Shown: positions 7,983 to 14,842 of the stretch, piece by piece
Numbering within the stretch: position 1 is the stretch's first letter
How the letters are laid out: every line of letters starts with the position of its first letter
NCBI GenBank assembly: GCA_029564595.1
Contig: JAKQPS010000074.1
Coordinates: 1 to 45,084 of the forward strand
Reading direction: 5' to 3'
From: a bacterium
GTDB lineage: Bacteria > UBP15 > UBA6099
DNA: 45,084 nucleotides
The notes under the pieces: model-generated
Told to the model about the DNA's origin: nothing
Databases searched by the model: none
What the model saw: only the letters and a program-made list of their open reading frames with translations
Made by a program: the position numbers and the translations under genes

Positions 7983-10027
7983 GACGCGGAGCCCCCGTTC
8001 TTAGTTTTCTGTTTAGCGACAACGCGCCGCGCCGCGTCCGCCACCGCGCCGGGGACGAAGCCGAACTTCTTGAACAGGGCGGAAGCCGGGCCGGAGGCCC
8101 CGAAGCCGTCCATGCCGACAATCTCGCCGTCAAGCCCGGCGTATCTTTCCCAGCCAGTGCGTATGCCCGCCTCGACCGCGACCCGCGCGCGGACGGCGTC
8201 CGGCAGCACGCTCTCTTTATATTCGGGCGTCTGGGCGTCGAACAGTTCCCATGACGGCATGGACACCGCGCGGGCGTTAACGCCCTCTTCCGCCAGAGCG
8301 CGGGCGGCGGCGAGCGCGATTTCCACTTCGGAGCCGGTGGCGATGATAATCGCGTCCGGTGCGCCTTCCCTCGCCTGCCACAGTGTGTACGCGCCTTTGT
8401 GAAGGTTGGCGGCAGACGGATATTCAGCGCGGTCAAGACACGGCAGGTTCTGCCTCGAAAGCACTAGGGCGGTCGGCCCGGACGAGTTCAACAGAGCCGC
8501 TCGCCACGCTTCGACCGTCTCCGCCGCGTCCGCGGGCCGGATAACCGTCACATTCGGCATCGCTCGCAGCGACATCAGATGTTCCACCGGCTGGTGCGTC
8601 GGCCCGTCCTCCCCCACTCCTATGCTGTCGTGCGTGAACACGTATATCACACGGACGCCCATAATGGCCGCGAGCCTTATGGACGGCCTCATGTAGTCGG
8701 CAAAAGTGAAGAACGTGCCCGCGTATGGAATCAGTCCGCCGTGCAGCGCGATCCCGCCGCACACGGCTGCCATCGCGTGTTCTCTGACGCCGAAGTGGAT
8801 GTTATTCGCCGCGCGGTCGGTCGCGCTGAAGCTTCCAGACGCGGCCAGCCGCGTGTTGTTGCTGGGGCCGAGGTCGGCGGAGCCTCCGATTAGGTTCGGC
8901 AACTTTGCGAACAGCGCGTTCAGCGCCTTGCCCGACGCCGCCCGCGTCGCCATCGGTTTCGAGTCTGCCGGGACAACTCCCTCAAGCGCCGACTCCCATC
9001 CTTGCGGCAACTCGCCTTTCATCGCGGACATGAATTCCTGCGCGTCCGCCGGATAAAGTTTTTCATAAACCGAGAACAGCTTCGACCATTTAGACTCGGC
9101 GCGTTTGCCGCGGGCGACCGCCTTGCGCATGTGAGCGGCCACTTCCAGCGGCACGATGAATTCCGGTTCGAGCGGCCAGCCGAGCGCCTTCTTGGTGGCG
9201 ACCGCGTTGTCCGCTCCGAGCGGAGAGCCGTGGGACTTCTCGCTGTCCTCCAGCGGGCTGTGCCGCCCGATGATGGTCTTGCAGATTATGAGAGACGGCT
9301 TGGAGGCATCCCTGCGCGCGCGGCGCAGCGCCTTTCTCACCGCCGGGATGTCGAACCCGTCCACCGGCCCTATCACCTGCCAGCCGAGGGCCTTGAACTT
9401 CGCCGCCACATTCTCTCCAAACGCCAGACTCGTCCGGCCTTCGATCTGAATTCCGTTGTCGTCGTAAAGGCAGATGAGTTTCCCGAGCGCGAGATGTCCC
9501 GCCAAGCTTGCCGCCTCGGTGGAAAGTCCCTCCTGAATATCTCCGTCAGAACAGACGACATACGTGTTGTGGTCCACGATATTGAAGCCGGGTTTATTGA
9601 AGCGGGCGGCGAGCCGCGCCTCCGCGAGCGCCATCCCCACCGCGTGCGCCAGCCCCTGCCCCAGCGGCCCTGTCGATATCTCCACGCCCGCCGCAAGGTC
9701 TCTCTCCGGATGTCCCGGAGTCCTGCTGCCAAGCTGCCGGAAGTTCCTCAACTCGTCCAACGGCAGGTCGTAGCCTGTGAGATGCAGCAGCGAATACAGC
9801 AGCATCGACGCATGCCCGGCGGACAACGCGAACCTGTCGCGGTCCGGCCACTCCGGGTTCGCCGGGCTGTGCTTCATGAACCCGTCGAAAAGCGCGTATC
9901 CCATCGCGGCCATTCCGAGCGGCGCGCCGGGATGCCCCGAATTGGCCTTCTGCGTGGCGTCCACCGCCAGCATCCTTATCGTGTTCACGCATTTGATTTC
10001 CAGTTCCGTTCCGATGTCTTTCATCAT
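7979..10027 (-). CDS. tkt: Transketolase
   Basis: The 682-residue full-length enzyme interconverts pentose and triose/hexose phosphates with thiamine diphosphate. Seen motifs include GHPGAPLGMA near residue 32, ISTGPLGQGLAHAVGMA, the ThDP/metal motif SDGDIQEG...YDDN near residues 155-190, and the second-domain GVREHAMAA and FTHDSIGVGEDGPTHQP. Length is typical (650-690). The ATG at 10027 follows GGGGGACGG; the next codon is also ATG. It heads a minus-strand run with the URO-D-like, PlsC and TPR genes. Confidence 0.96.
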   Translation of the reverse strand: MMKDIGTELEIKCVNTIRMLAVDATQKANSGHPGAPLGMAAMGYALFDGFMKHSPANPEWPDRDRFALSAGHASMLLYSLLHLTGYDLPLDELRNFRQLGSRTPGHPERDLAAGVEISTGPLGQGLAHAVGMALAEARLAARFNKPGFNIVDHNTYVVCSDGDIQEGLSTEAASLAGHLALGKLICLYDDNGIQIEGRTSLAFGENVAAKFKALGWQVIGPVDGFDIPAVRKALRRARRDASKPSLIICKTIIGRHSPLEDSEKSHGSPLGADNAVATKKALGWPLEPEFIVPLEVAAHMRKAVARGKRAESKWSKLFSVYEKLYPADAQEFMSAMKGELPQGWESALEGVVPADSKPMATRAASGKALNALFAKLPNLIGGSADLGPSNNTRLAASGSFSATDRAANNIHFGVREHAMAAVCGGIALHGGLIPYAGTFFTFADYMRPSIRLAAIMGVRVIYVFTHDSIGVGEDGPTHQPVEHLMSLRAMPNVTVIRPADAAETVEAWRAALLNSSGPTALVLSRQNLPCLDRAEYPSAANLHKGAYTLWQAREGAPDAIIIATGSEVEIALAAARALAEEGVNARAVSMPSWELFDAQTPEYKESVLPDAVRARVAVEAGIRTGWERYAGLDGEIVGMDGFGASGPASALFKKFGFVPGAVADAARRVVAKQKTKNGGSAS

Positions 10028-10104: not shown

Positions 10105-11268
10105 TTACGGCAACGCGCCGCCCTGCCCCGCGCCGTAACCTGCAAGCTCCGTGAAAACGTCTCCCGACAGCCGTTCGCCGTCGATCACCGCCTCCGCACT
10201 GCCGAAGCCCGCCCATGTCCCGCCGCGCGCCGGGCCGAACGCCTTCGTCTCCTGATAAGGCATATCCTGCCTGATGGTCAGATGCGCGCGCAACGACGGC
10301 GCCGCCACCGCCCATTCAACCGGATAAACTATCCCCGTCTCAGAACTCTTCCGCCAACTCAGAGGCTCCAACACGATGTCCCGCGCGACCGAAACCCGGC
10401 CGTCCGCCCATTTAATCGTCGCCATCCTGTGAAACCTCTCTCCGGTGTCCGGCCTGCGGGCGACGAACAAATTTATGTCCGTTCCGTCTTCCATTTGGAC
10501 GCGGAACCATTCCCACCCCGCGTTCTTGCCAGCGGCCCCCGCGGCGCCGTACTTATGGTCATACCACAGCGCTCCGCGCGCGCGCCTCGCCTCGCCGCCT
10601 ATCCTCAACTCCCCCTTCGCCGTCATTCGCGCGAACGAATACATAAGAAAATTCTCGTCCGGATTCAGCCCGGCGCTTCCCGCGCCGCCCATGAAAAGCG
10701 GCCCTCGCTCCGGCTTCATCTCCAACTCGACCTCGAACCCTTCGCCCGCCAACCTCGCGCCGTATCTCCAGTCCTCCCAGTCGCGTCCGGGGCTTTTCTC
10801 GTTGACGAAATAATTGCCGTCGAACATCAGCCCCAGACTCTCGCTAATCGCCACTGGCTCTTTCTTCATCAAGACGCGGCTCTTCTCGTTTTCATTCGCG
10901 TCAAACATTTCCGGGCGCGGCGCGGCGCTGTCTTCCGCCGCAAGCTCCGCCCCCGCCTTGTCCATCAACGCGACGCCGTGGAACTTGCCGGCTGCCTTCT
11001 CCGTCAGACTGTAGAAAATAAAATGCGCCGGCGGCATGCCTCCGCGCCTCGCGATGACATACTCCGCCGATACCCCGTATCTTCTTCCTTCGTCGTCTTG
11101 GAGAACCCCGCACAAACGCCACTCTTCCACAGGAGAGCCGGCGTGCGGCTTTTCGTCGTCCGGAAGATTTATCAACGGAAGCGTCAGAGATACTTGAGCC
11201 GGAGCCGGGGCAGCGAACATTACCGCCGCCGCCACAACCGTCATCGCAGTTATTGTTATTCTCCGCAT
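10105..11268 (-). CDS. Secreted AttH/CrtC-like lipocalin-fold protein
   Basis: The 387-residue protein begins with a cleavable signal peptide (MRRITITAMTVVAAAVMFAA, then PAPAQ), so it is exported to the periplasm. The remainder has the AttH/hydroxyneurosporene-hydratase pattern: EEWRLCGVLQDDEGRRYG, ARRGGMPPAHFIFYSLT, WYDHKYGAAG and WEWFRVQMEDGTDINLFVAR. Such proteins have a double lipocalin fold and are often called predicted secreted hydrolases; in phototrophs related CrtC hydrates carotenoids. No carotenoid genes are nearby, so the substrate is open. A GGAGG lies nine bases before the ATG. The gap to tkt is 77 bases. Confidence 0.82.
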   Translation of the reverse strand: MRRITITAMTVVAAAVMFAAPAPAQVSLTLPLINLPDDEKPHAGSPVEEWRLCGVLQDDEGRRYGVSAEYVIARRGGMPPAHFIFYSLTEKAAGKFHGVALMDKAGAELAAEDSAAPRPEMFDANENEKSRVLMKKEPVAISESLGLMFDGNYFVNEKSPGRDWEDWRYGARLAGEGFEVELEMKPERGPLFMGGAGSAGLNPDENFLMYSFARMTAKGELRIGGEARRARGALWYDHKYGAAGAAGKNAGWEWFRVQMEDGTDINLFVARRPDTGERFHRMATIKWADGRVSVARDIVLEPLSWRKSSETGIVYPVEWAVAAPSLRAHLTIRQDMPYQETKAFGPARGGTWAGFGSAEAVIDGERLSGDVFTELAGYGAGQGGALP

Positions 11269-11447: not shown

Positions 11448-12512
11448 ATGGGCAATCAGGATATGAAACGCGATAAACCATATATCGCTGTCGCGGCTAT
11501 TCTGGGCGCGATAGTGTCGATCAGCCTGCTGCATTACCTTACGGACTTGCATCAGCACCTTATGCACGCCGCGTACCAGCGTCTCTATTACGTGCCGATA
11601 ATATTCGCCGCGTACAAGTTCGGAGTGAAAGGCGGGCTGGCCGCGTCGGCAGCCTCAACCGCATTCTACCTTCCTCACATTTTTTTGCAGTGGGGCATGG
11701 GACACCACTTCGGAGACCAGATATGCGACATCGTTATGTTCAACATCATCGGTTGCGTTACAGGGCTGTTCTCGCAGAAGGAAAAGGAAATGAGCAGCAA
11801 GTACAAGGAAGCATACGAGATGCTGCAAAGCTCGTTTGAGAAGGCGAAGAACGCGGACCGGCTGGCCGCCATCGGCAGTCTTGCCGCGGCCGTCGCTCAT
11901 GAGATACAAAACCCCATCAACGGCATCAAAGGCGCTCAGGAAATCGTCTTCGAAAAGTTCACCCCCGAAGACAAAGAATTCAAGTTCATCGGAATCGTCA
12001 GGAAAGAGATGTCCCGGCTGGAGGACATCGTCTCGGAGATATTGAATTTCGCGAGGCCGCGCGAGCCTAACATGCGCAGAACGGACATCGGCGCGGTGGT
12101 CTCTTCCGTGGCAGACATGTGTTGCAACCACGCGGCGGCTAAAGGCGTGGGGCTGCGAGTCGAGCCGAGCGCCGGCGACATTCACGCGAACGCGGACGCG
12201 GACATGATAAAACAGGCGCTGCTCAACCTCGCCCTTAATGGCATCGACGCGTGCGGCCCCGGCGGAGAGATTTCTATCAGCGTCGAGAAAGAAGACGGTC
12301 AGGCCGTCATCCGTGTGCGCGACAACGGCTCCGGCGTTTGCGTGGCCGACTTGGAAAAAATCTTCGAGCCGTTCTTCTCCACCAAAACCGCCGGAACAGG
12401 GCTGGGGCTGGCGGTCAGCCGCGGCATAATCGAGAAACACGGCGGAGACATCTCCGTCAAAAGCAAACAGGGCGAAGGGAGCGTTTTCGAGGCGCGCCTC
12501 GACGCGGAATGA
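11448..12512 (+). CDS. Membrane sensor histidine kinase
   Basis: The 354-residue kinase has an N-terminal membrane part (hydrophobic segments about 12-31, 46-75 and 92-108), a short coiled linker and a complete kinase core. The H-box is VAHEIQNP with the phosphorylated His151; the N-box is LNLALNGIDA, G1 is DNGSG and G2 GTGLGLAVS. A cluster of histidines (29, 35, 37, 40, and 86-87) flanks the membrane segments, which could bind a ligand such as a metal; this is conjecture, as related kinases share some of these. The start has CGGAG six bases upstream. Its stop overlaps the ATG of the response regulator (ATGA), so the two form a coupled two-component pair. Confidence 0.93.
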   Translation: MGNQDMKRDKPYIAVAAILGAIVSISLLHYLTDLHQHLMHAAYQRLYYVPIIFAAYKFGVKGGLAASAASTAFYLPHIFLQWGMGHHFGDQICDIVMFNIIGCVTGLFSQKEKEMSSKYKEAYEMLQSSFEKAKNADRLAAIGSLAAAVAHEIQNPINGIKGAQEIVFEKFTPEDKEFKFIGIVRKEMSRLEDIVSEILNFARPREPNMRRTDIGAVVSSVADMCCNHAAAKGVGLRVEPSAGDIHANADADMIKQALLNLALNGIDACGPGGEISISVEKEDGQAVIRVRDNGSGVCVADLEKIFEPFFSTKTAGTGLGLAVSRGIIEKHGGDISVKSKQGEGSVFEARLDAE

Positions 12513-13888
12513 TTATGGCTGAAAAAAAGAAAAAAGCGCTTTTCGTCGACGACGATCCAAGTCAGGTCGAAGTCGCAAAATACAGGCTTGAAGAAGCCGG
12601 GCACATAGTAAGAACCGCCTCAAACGGAACAGAGGCGTTCGACGCTTTCCTCGATTTCCGGCCCGATGTCGTCATCACCGACCTAAAAATGCCCGAACTT
12701 ACAGGCATGGAGCTTATGGTAAAAGTGAAAAGCGTCTCCCCGGACACCGTCTTCATCGTCATAACCGCGCACGGCTCAATCGATTCGGCGGTCGAGGCGA
12801 TGAAAGCCGGAGCTTACGATTACATACAGAAACCCTTCGACCACAAGGCGCTGTTATTGTGCGTTGAAAAAGCGATGCGCGTCTCCAGCCTCATCGAAGA
12901 GAACAGATATCTGCGACAGGTGGCGATGGAGAACTTCCGATTTGAATCAATCGTCGGCGCGTCGAAGAAAATGAGAGAAGTATTCGGAGTCGCCTCGCAG
13001 GTGGCCCCGAAGAACGCCACCGCGCTGCTTCTGGGCGAGAGCGGCACGGGCAAAGAACTTCTTGCTAAAGCCATTCATTTCAACAGTCCGAGAAAAGACA
13101 AACCCTTCGTCGCGATCAATATGGCCGCCATACCGGAGAACCTGATCGACTCGGAGCTGTTCGGCCACGAGAAAGGCTCGTTCACGGGAGCGCACGCGGC
13201 GAGAACGGGCAAATTCGAGTTAGCAGACGGCGGCACGCTTTTCCTAGACGAGATCGGCAGCATGAAGCCTGATCTTCAAGCCCGGCTTCTGCGCGTCCTT
13301 CAGGAAAGACAGATAGAAAAAGTCGGCGGCTCCCGCCCCATCGACATCGACGTAAGGATTATCGCCGCCACAAATGAAAACCTTGAAGAGAAGATCGCCG
13401 CCGGCGAGTTCAGGGAAGACCTTTTCTACAGATTAAACGTGGTGACGATAACTCTGCCCCCGCTGCGCGAGCGGGTGGACGATATACCCATGCTCATAGA
13501 CCGTTTCGTCGAAAAATTCAGCGTCAAGTTCGGCGCGCCGCGCATCAGGTTCTCAGACGACTCTCTCAGAGCGTTGCTTCAATACCCTTGGCCCGGCAAC
13601 GTCAGAGAACTCGAAAACGTCATCGAGAGCTGCGCCGCAGTGAGCGCCTCCGGCGCTGTTTCCGCCGCCGACCTGCCAGAAAAAATACGCCGCCCCGGCG
13701 GAACCGCCGGACGCATCTTCATTGACCTGCCAGACGACGGCATTTCCCTCTATCAAATCGAAAAAGCCGCCATCGAGCGCGCCCTCGAAAAAAACAACTT
13801 CAACCAATCGAAAACCGCTCGCTTCCTTCAAATCCCTAGGAACACTCTTATCTACCGAATGGAAAAACTGGAGATACCGAAAAATTAG
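12509..13888 (+). CDS. Sigma-54-dependent response regulator, NtrC family
   Basis: The 459-residue protein has the three NtrC-family domains. The receiver has the acidic pocket VDDD (14-16) and phospho-acceptor Asp58 in VVITDLKMPE. The AAA+ domain has Walker A GESGTGKE, the sigma-54 contact loop GSFTGA (the usual GAFTGA with Ala replaced by Ser), and Walker B GGTLFLDEIG. The C-terminal Fis-type helix-turn-helix is NFNQSKTARFLQIPRNTLIY. It activates RNA polymerase bound to -24/-12 promoters from upstream sites. A 13-base-arm palindrome and a sigma-54 promoter lie directly downstream, before the CxC-protein gene. Start at 12509 is set by the ATGA overlap; an alternative ATG is at 12515. Confidence 0.95.
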   Translation: MIMAEKKKKALFVDDDPSQVEVAKYRLEEAGHIVRTASNGTEAFDAFLDFRPDVVITDLKMPELTGMELMVKVKSVSPDTVFIVITAHGSIDSAVEAMKAGAYDYIQKPFDHKALLLCVEKAMRVSSLIEENRYLRQVAMENFRFESIVGASKKMREVFGVASQVAPKNATALLLGESGTGKELLAKAIHFNSPRKDKPFVAINMAAIPENLIDSELFGHEKGSFTGAHAARTGKFELADGGTLFLDEIGSMKPDLQARLLRVLQERQIEKVGGSRPIDIDVRIIAATNENLEEKIAAGEFREDLFYRLNVVTITLPPLRERVDDIPMLIDRFVEKFSVKFGAPRIRFSDDSLRALLQYPWPGNVRELENVIESCAAVSASGAVSAADLPEKIRRPGGTAGRIFIDLPDDGISLYQIEKAAIERALEKNNFNQSKTARFLQIPRNTLIYRMEKLEIPKN

Positions 13889-13971
13889 CGGCCTCACAGA
13901 AATTTTTTGACGCCCTGTTTTAACAATTTGAATCTTTCGAATGGATTCCCTCTTTTTGCTTCGGAATGACC

Positions 13972-14008
13972 GATATTCGTCAGAGCATCTGACGAATATC
14001 CGTCAAAA
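13972..14008. promoter_or_regulatory. Upstream activator palindrome for the sigma-54 regulator
   Basis: A perfect inverted repeat with 13-base arms, GATATTCGTCAGA and its complement, lies at 13972-13984 and 13988-14000 around a 3-base centre. A further half-site (ATATCCGTCAAA) overlaps and extends to 14008. Its centre is about 96 bases upstream of the predicted start site, the usual distance for an NtrC-type enhancer. Binding by the adjacent regulator is inferred. Confidence 0.75.
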
Positions 14009-14054: not shown

Positions 14055-14072
14055 TTGGCGCGTTTTTTGCTT
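14055..14072 (+). promoter_or_regulatory. Sigma-54 (-24/-12) promoter
   Basis: TTGGCGCG followed by TTTTTTGCTT places GG at 14057-14058 and GC at 14069-14070 with exactly ten bases between, the required RpoN spacing. The predicted start is near 14082, giving a leader of about 120 bases before the CxC-protein ATG. Confidence 0.82.
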
Positions 14073-14139: not shown

Positions 14140-14163
14140 CCCGCGAAGACGCGGATTCGCGGG
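14140..14163 (+). promoter_or_regulatory. Leader hairpin upstream of the CxC protein
   Basis: A perfect 8-base stem, CCCGCGAA paired with TTCGCGGG, encloses an 8-base loop within the untranslated leader. It ends about 30 bases before the AAAGGAG ribosome site. It is not followed by a T-run, so it is not a plain terminator. It may stabilise the mRNA or control translation; this is unproven. Confidence 0.5.
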
Positions 14164-14204
14164 TTGCGCATAAATCATTTAATAAAACAAAAAGGAGACC
14201 TGTT

Positions 14205-14762
14205 ATGAAAAAAGATTTTCTCAGAAAGCCGGCCCTGCTGGCGCTCGCCATGTTTGTCAGCGTATTCATGTTCTTCTCCGCCGCTTCGCCGGGAAGCGCG
14301 CTCGATTCAGCGGGCAAGGAGAAAGCAAAGATTAGCGCGGCTAAAGACGCTGCGGCCAAAGCCGACGCGAAATACTCCGAGTGTTCATGCAAAAATGGCG
14401 GGGAATGCAAATGCGACGGCAAGTGCGAATGCAAACCTGCCTCCAACTGCAAATGCGGCGGCGGCTGCGACTGCGATGGAAAGAAGGATGGGAAAGACTG
14501 CAAGTGCGGCAAGAACAAATCCGCCGCCAACTGCGACTGCGGCAAAGGCTGCGGATGCGAAGGAACGAAAGCGGGAGCCGACTGCAAATGTGGCAAGAAC
14601 AAATCCGCGACTAATTGCGATTGCGGCGGCGGCTGCGACTGCAAGGGCGAATGCAAATGCAAAAAAGGCGGCAACTCTGAAAAAGCCGCCTGCTCCTGCG
14701 GAAAAAGCTGTCCCCATGGCAAGGACTGCGCCTGCGGCTCCAACTGCAAATGCGGCAAATAA
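14205..14762 (+). CDS. Exported cysteine-rich CxC-repeat protein (metallothionein-like)
   Basis: The 185-residue protein starts at an ATG with AAAGGAG eight bases upstream; an earlier in-frame ATG at 14136 has no ribosome site. Residues 1-34 form a signal peptide (KKDFLRKPALLALAMFVSVF, ending near SPGSALD). A short Lys/Ala-rich helix-forming linker follows. The rest contains 31 cysteines, 30 of them in 15 Cys-x-Cys pairs separated by Gly, Lys and Asp, plus one lone cysteine near a histidine (SCPHG). An internal duplication is visible around DCKCGKNKSA-NCDCG, twice. Such density of CxC pairs suggests thiolate binding of soft metals outside the cytoplasm, or a disulfide-rich coat protein. It matches no classical metallothionein I know. 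Control by sigma-54 and the adjacent two-component system is inferred from the promoter. Confidence 0.85.
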   Translation: MKKDFLRKPALLALAMFVSVFMFFSAASPGSALDSAGKEKAKISAAKDAAAKADAKYSECSCKNGGECKCDGKCECKPASNCKCGGGCDCDGKKDGKDCKCGKNKSAANCDCGKGCGCEGTKAGADCKCGKNKSATNCDCGGGCDCKGECKCKKGGNSEKAACSCGKSCPHGKDCACGSNCKCGK

Positions 14763-14803: not shown

Positions 14804-14842
14804 AAAACGCCGCTCCCGATTCTTGCGGAGCGGCGTTTTTTT
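14804..14842 (+). terminator. Rho-independent terminator
   Basis: An 11-base perfect stem (AACGCCGCTCC at 14806-14816 with its complement at 14827-14837) is followed by a T-run to 14842. It ends the CxC-protein transcript about 40 bases after the stop. Confidence 0.9.

Follow-up and report, generated by a model that had tools for sequence, protein, structure and literature searches.

A putative exported, Cys-x-Cys-rich, Cu-thionein-like protein encoded next to a sigma-54-dependent two-component system in a UBP15 bacterium

RESULTS AND DISCUSSION

We analyzed a 45,084-nucleotide stretch of DNA from a UBP15 bacterium (here called the window) and found that it encodes a protein in which nearly all cysteines are arranged as Cys-x-Cys (CxC) dyads. 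The reading that we favor, and hold to be fairly probable, is that this CxC protein is inducible, is exported, and acts as a Cu(I)/Ag(I)-thiolate sponge of the Cu-thionein kind, under the control of the two-component system encoded immediately upstream. An apparent copper-type sensor system seems to control the gene, and the protein therefore probably sequesters copper, or else silver, in an extracytoplasmic location.

The CxC protein

The gene and its product have the following features.

14192 to 14197, plus strand: Shine-Dalgarno sequence AAGGAG, read from the sequence, about 7 nt 5' of the ATG.
14205 to 14762, plus strand: open reading frame of the putatively exported CxC-rich protein (185 residues; 31 Cys, in 15 CxC dyads plus 1 lone Cys).
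14205 to 14300, plus strand: predicted Sec-type signal peptide (approximately residues 1 to 32), from sequence reading and a hydropathy scan.
14432 to 14646, plus strand: tandem duplication with a period of 84 bp (28 residues), 2.6 copies and 76% matches; unit CKC-x8-CDC-x3-CxC-x8.

The open reading frame is real, starting with the ATG at 14205 and with its stop codon inside the end coordinate, and its cysteines are specified by 28 TGC and 3 TGT codons. Our recount agrees with the cysteine and dyad totals given in the initial annotation, and the internal duplication reported there corresponds to the 84-bp repeat. The lone cysteine is C169. Successive dyads are separated by 5, 3, 5, 3, 8, 8, 3, 8, 8, 3, 3, 10, 9, and 3 residues, the arrangement CxC-x5-CxC-x3-CxC occurs twice, and the protein has an odd number of cysteines and neither a CC nor a CxxC motif. 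When the Cys-rich region was shuffled with its composition kept, at least 15 CxC motifs appeared in 0.04% of shuffles, and at least 15 CxC motifs together with the absence of CC and CxxC in 0 of 200,000. Because this joint state was never reached, the cysteine pattern exceeds what composition accounts for. The mature protein is 20% Cys and rich in Cys, Lys, Gly, Ala, and Asp, with one Tyr as its sole aromatic residue and one His, and Lys adjoins 16 of the 31 cysteines. In its very high Cys content, its few aromatic and His residues, and its CxC motifs, this composition is that of a metallothionein in the functional sense.

The putative signal peptide has an n-region (KKDFLRK), a hydrophobic core of about 18 residues, and candidate cleavage sites at SAA and GSA, with no twin arginine and no lipobox; a Lys/Ala-rich linker (residues 33 to 59) joins it to the Cys-rich region. 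AlphaFold, run on the single sequence, gave no confident fold (mean pLDDT of 47) and predicted helix only in the signal peptide. Such a lack of fold is expected of an apo-thionein and equally of any disordered chain.

Searches for homologues

The initial annotation had judged the protein a poor fit to SmtA/BmtA and had proposed a profile search. The judgment is borne out, in that the protein matched no characterized family in searches of Pfam, NCBIfam, and PDB sequences. None of the Pfam and NCBIfam metallothionein profiles (SmtA/BmtA type) matched at E values up to 1 or 10. No homologues were found in plasmids, GTDB contigs, or IMG/VR, in the other genomes of its own phylum (seven searched, including the window's own, which is 97% complete), in the 29 genomes behind the kinase loci described below, or in 395 genomes from the phylum of genome G008; some of these searches lose power through the low-complexity filter of BLAST, but the self-match of the CxC protein survives SEG. 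At the DNA level, the pattern CxC-x3-CxC-x3-CxC was present in the phylum only in the CxC gene itself and in simple tandem repeats in genome G005. The search for Cys-rich open reading frames near 69 kinase loci yielded no credible CxC-rich protein. One candidate paralogue, at C173 in the window's genome, was rejected for its low score (E = 0.41) and internal stops. With no homologue at hand, conservation of the cysteine pattern cannot be judged. As far as its sequence indicates, the protein is metallothionein-like and belongs to no named family, and we found no exported or periplasmic bacterial equivalent of a metallothionein described in the open-access literature (subscription papers were outside the scope of this search).

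The upstream kinase and regulator

Two genes precede the CxC gene.

11448 to 12512, plus strand: membrane sensor histidine kinase of 354 residues (HisKA and HATPase_c domains by Pfam, after a short N-terminal transmembrane sensor domain).
12509 to 13888, plus strand: sigma-54-dependent response regulator of the NtrC/AtoC/ZraR type (receiver, AAA+, and Fis-type helix-turn-helix domains), overlapping the stop codon of the kinase gene.

These kinase and regulator domains, the -24/-12 promoter described below, and the RpoN encoded in the window's genome are the components of an NtrC-type bEBP two-component system. Both proteins fall short of the NCBIfam equivalog cutoffs for ZraSR, the kinase scoring 199.9 bits against a cutoff of 479 for ZraS and the regulator 370.3 bits against 760 for ZraR. 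The sensor domain has weak MASE1/DUF4118-like Pfam matches, and in an alignment of six orthologues its His29, His40, His77, and Met97 are invariant, making these residues candidate metal ligands. Upstream of the kinase, and with no evident link to metals, lies a gene on the minus strand (10105 to 11268) for an exported CrtC/lipocalin-like (AttH-type) protein, beside a transketolase gene.

The promoter region and terminator

The following elements flank the CxC gene.

13967 to 13982, plus strand: first palindromic 16-bp putative regulator site, TGACCGATATTCGTCA, an inverted repeat; the arrangement recurs at position 8546 of locus L023.
13990 to 14005, plus strand: second palindromic 16-bp putative regulator site, TGACGAATATCCGTCA, 23 bp from the first.
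14056 to 14071, plus strand: putative sigma-54 -24/-12 promoter, TGGCGCGTTTTTTGCT, matching 11 of 12 consensus positions.
14804 to 14842, plus strand: intrinsic terminator, ACGCCGCTCC...GGAGCGGCGTTTTTTT (RNA fold of -31.3 kcal/mol, z of -6.1).

Between the regulator gene and the CxC gene, TGACCGATATTCGTCA and TGACGAATATCCGTCA together form an inverted repeat with 18-bp arms. The putative promoter lies about 55 to 60 bp beyond the palindromes. Nowhere else in the window is a match of 11/12 reached, and the region yielded no promoter of the sigma-70 type. The CxC gene, directly after the kinase-regulator pair and closed off by the strong terminator, appears to be a transcription unit of its own. 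Across seven genomes, zero-mismatch matches to the site consensus occurred only at this locus and at L023 in G005, a result that speaks for the specificity of the sites and not for their independent discovery, the consensus having been built from these same two loci. Single mismatched copies of the site are few elsewhere in the window's genome, and we claim no regulon. The leader of about 120 nt between promoter and start codon folds no better than shuffled sequences; it contains a perfect 8-bp hairpin (CCCGCGAA/TTCGCGGG) at 14140 to 14163.

Orthologous regulators adjoin Cus-type pumps in related bacteria

Full-length orthologues of the kinase are encoded in G005 (54% by BLAST) and in G002, G004, and G006 (about 40%), and a regulator orthologue (55 to 65%) adjoins the kinase wherever the contig continues, the G004 contig ending after the kinase. 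In each of these four genomes (4/4), one kinase orthologue lies beside a CusCBA-type operon encoding one or more outer-membrane efflux proteins, a CusB-type adaptor with heavy-metal-binding domains, a CusA-type RND protein, and a small exported protein of the DUF3347 type. The closest orthologous pair, with 54% for the kinase and 65% for the regulator, is that at L023 in G005. There, two sites (TGACGGATATCCGTCA and TGACCAATATGCGGCA), also 23 bp apart, are followed by a sigma-54 promoter (TGGCATGAACCTTGCA) and then by the gene order DUF3347-DUF2231-CusC-CusC'-CusB-CusA. The sites of the window and of L023 match at 15 of 16 positions, a value reached in none of 2,000 shuffles of the L023 intergenic region. 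The G005 pump scored 1,233 bits against Escherichia coli CusA versus 558 bits against ZneA, and it keeps the Cu/Ag-binding residues Met573, Met623, and Met672 of CusA.

The CusCBA/CusF and DUF3347 operons thus resemble the system in the window in their orthologous regulator and, in G005, in having the same sites and promoter type; they differ in serving efflux rather than sequestration, and their genes are absent beside the window's two-component system. In G005, the gene that comes first after the matching promoter (L023, 8878 to 9504) has a small, exported, DUF3347-like product whose tail is rich in Cys and His (KCKCHDKHEHG...); this product may be a counterpart of the CxC protein. A second kinase-regulator copy in G006 (L027, 8305 to 10759) has no pump and is adjoined by genes for a PP2C-type phosphatase and a Ser/Thr kinase-like protein.

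The window's genome encodes a Cu-type P1B ATPase, CopA, scoring above the family cutoff, and no heavy-metal RND protein above its cutoff, the best RND reaching 543 against 701 bits. By sequence, the window's two-component system is nearer to that of G005, a member of another family, than to those of its genus mates (about 40%), so that simple synteny does not describe a replacement at this locus; the system may have arrived by a separate acquisition instead of having stayed at one locus while its output was swapped. The coincidence of an absent pump with an exported sponge is a correlation from a single genome. In one genus mate (ADurb.Bin236; G002), a noncanonical SepRS homologue and a SepCysSn-SepCysS operon have been described (PMC5424206), and RNA-dependent Cys synthesis is therefore possible in the genus that also encodes the CxC protein, with its very high Cys content.

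Proposed mechanism and alternatives

In the scheme that we infer, the upstream membrane kinase would sense excess Cu(I)/Ag(I) and phosphorylate the NtrC-type regulator, which would bind the paired palindromes and activate RpoN-polymerase at the -24/-12 promoter. The CxC protein would be secreted unfolded by Sec, to the periplasm or outside the cell, where its dyads would wrap around Cu(I) to a load of perhaps 20 to 24 Cu(I) per chain, a figure extrapolated from the Cryptococcus metallothioneins discussed below. It would buffer the copper that CopA pumps out, because the genome is without a CusCBA pump, and would do part of the job done by CusCBA in relatives; with CopA moving copper to the periplasm and the usual Cus route missing, an exported sponge is plausible. 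For CxC thiols to stay reduced in an oxidizing periplasm, the habitat would have to be anoxic or the protein would have to be loaded with metal rapidly. More tentatively, and with rather less confidence than in the sponge itself, we suggest that this lineage, duplicating a short unit of CxC type, may have convergently arrived at a long, exported Cu(I)-thionein, placed it under a sigma-54 copper two-component system, and used it instead of the RND efflux of its relatives.

Metal-thiolate binding by an exported protein is the better of the two ideas in the initial annotation, and this putative activity now draws support from its genomic context, in the metal-type two-component system, the sigma-54 promoter, and the orthologues beside CusCBA; the evidence that weighs most thus comes from beyond the coordinates given in that annotation. 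The other idea, a disulfide-linked layer, found no support. The predicted export, the richness in Cys and Lys, and a periplasm that may oxidize thiols would suit a protein that forms a disulfide-linked layer in the envelope or outside the cell, or one that buffers thiol redox state, and the low-confidence AlphaFold model fits this as it fits any disordered apo-protein. However, strict CxC spacing with an odd cysteine count and no CC or CxxC, metal-type regulators and sites upstream, and the absence of adjoining genes for cell envelope structure all make such a role unlikely, and we give it little weight.

A greater, if still doubtful, chance belongs to the reading that the exported protein is metallothionein-like but handles a different metal, soft or divalent (Zn, Cd, Hg, or As), under ZraSR-like control. 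CxC dyads are also present in Zn/Cd metallothioneins, the kinase and regulator do score, below cutoff, to the ZraS and ZraR models, and ZraR acts at a sigma-54 promoter to express a periplasmic protein that binds Zn (PMC4987338). Against this, the pumps beside the orthologous systems are of the CusA (Cu/Ag) type and not of the CzcA type, the three methionines of CusA are kept, and the cysteine pattern is that of the Cu-thioneins. The gene arrangement follows the same logic as zraP-zraSR, which raises the further idea of an accessory periplasmic metal binder acting mainly in kinase feedback or protein folding and not in storage. This seems improbable for a protein with no sequence match to the ZraP-type families in Pfam and with 31 cysteines, far more than a feedback sensor requires.

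Comparison with known systems

The sponge that we favor resembles the fungal Cu-thioneins (Neurospora and Agaricus metallothioneins, Cryptococcus CnMT1/2, and Tremella TmMT). In the sections of PMC4755600 that describe these proteins, the Neurospora and Agaricus Cu-metallothioneins have the spacing CxC-x5-CxC-x3-CxC, and Cryptococcus (Cu5 per 7 Cys) and Tremella (57 Cys, binding up to 45 Cu(I)) have proteins in which this unit has been multiplied in tandem. The CxC protein shares the spacing, the tandem amplification, the placement of nearly all cysteines in CxC, and the small residues and Lys between them. The fungal proteins differ in being eukaryotic, in having no signal peptide reported in those sections, and in showing no sequence match; the CxC protein, for its part, is without the CPP/CP signatures and the 7-Cys block ending described there. 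Its two copies of CxC-x5-CxC-x3-CxC are never followed by the x2-C that completes the family 8 unit, [CxC]-x5-[CxC]-x3-[CxC]-x2-C, and it matches no profile of that kind. In the ciliate Tetrahymena, the copper-induced metallothionein subfamily 7b (CuMT) likewise has essentially no CC clusters, has Lys next to many cysteines, and is preferentially induced by copper (PMC1808422), whereas its CKCxxCKC unit is missing from the CxC protein, which has no x2 spacing; subfamily 7b is eukaryotic and shows no homology. The likeness to these fungal and ciliate proteins appears to be one of pattern only, homology being neither claimed nor detected, and its best reading is convergence.

Among bacterial proteins, SmtA/BmtA/PmtA and MymT share with the CxC protein the idea of a Cys-rich metal-thiolate but are short, and it has no match to their Pfam or NCBIfam models. 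The predicted capacity of MymT is at most six Cu(I) (PMC7558416), and PmtA has been observed on the cell surface, which it probably reaches by a nonclassical route (PMC11237414). Csp1 is an exported, Cys-based Cu(I) store, but it is a four-helix bundle exported by Tat (PMC7558416), whereas the CxC protein has a Sec-type signal with no RR motif, CxC dyads, no bundle in its low-confidence model, and no Pfam match. In ZraSR-ZraP, a two-component regulator of the sigma-54 type turns on expression of a protein that binds metal in the periplasm (PMC4987338); that system differs in its sensor domain, in its response to Zn, and in the sequence of ZraP, which is unrelated, ZraP-type profiles in NCBIfam likewise giving no match to the CxC protein. 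The bacterial metallothioneins described so far are short, and the copper store known to be exported by bacteria is a folded helix bundle, so a long secreted CxC thionein, if confirmed, would be a third solution for bacteria. It would also suggest that the fungal and ciliate Cu-thionein pattern has evolved repeatedly and would show that a regulator can exchange efflux for sequestration, or the reverse, as its output. The sites, promoter, protein, and pump-less host make up a testable set.

The sensor domain in other phyla

Scanning GTDB contigs with the sensor domain recovered 69 loci (L053 to L121) in Geobacteraceae, Acidobacteria, Chlorobi, and others, 49 of which have a strong regulator match. 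A heavy-metal-type RND gene is within reach at 19 of the 69 loci and at 11 of the 32 with full flanks, or at 20 of 69 and 12 of 32 if L053 is counted (this locus is from G005, and its stretch ends before CusA). Some relatives of the kinase have no metal gene within reach. The short multi-His membrane domain carries the motif [YF][DQ]RL[YF]Y[IV]P[IV] and heads sigma-54-coupled kinases, and it may represent a new family of metal sensors.
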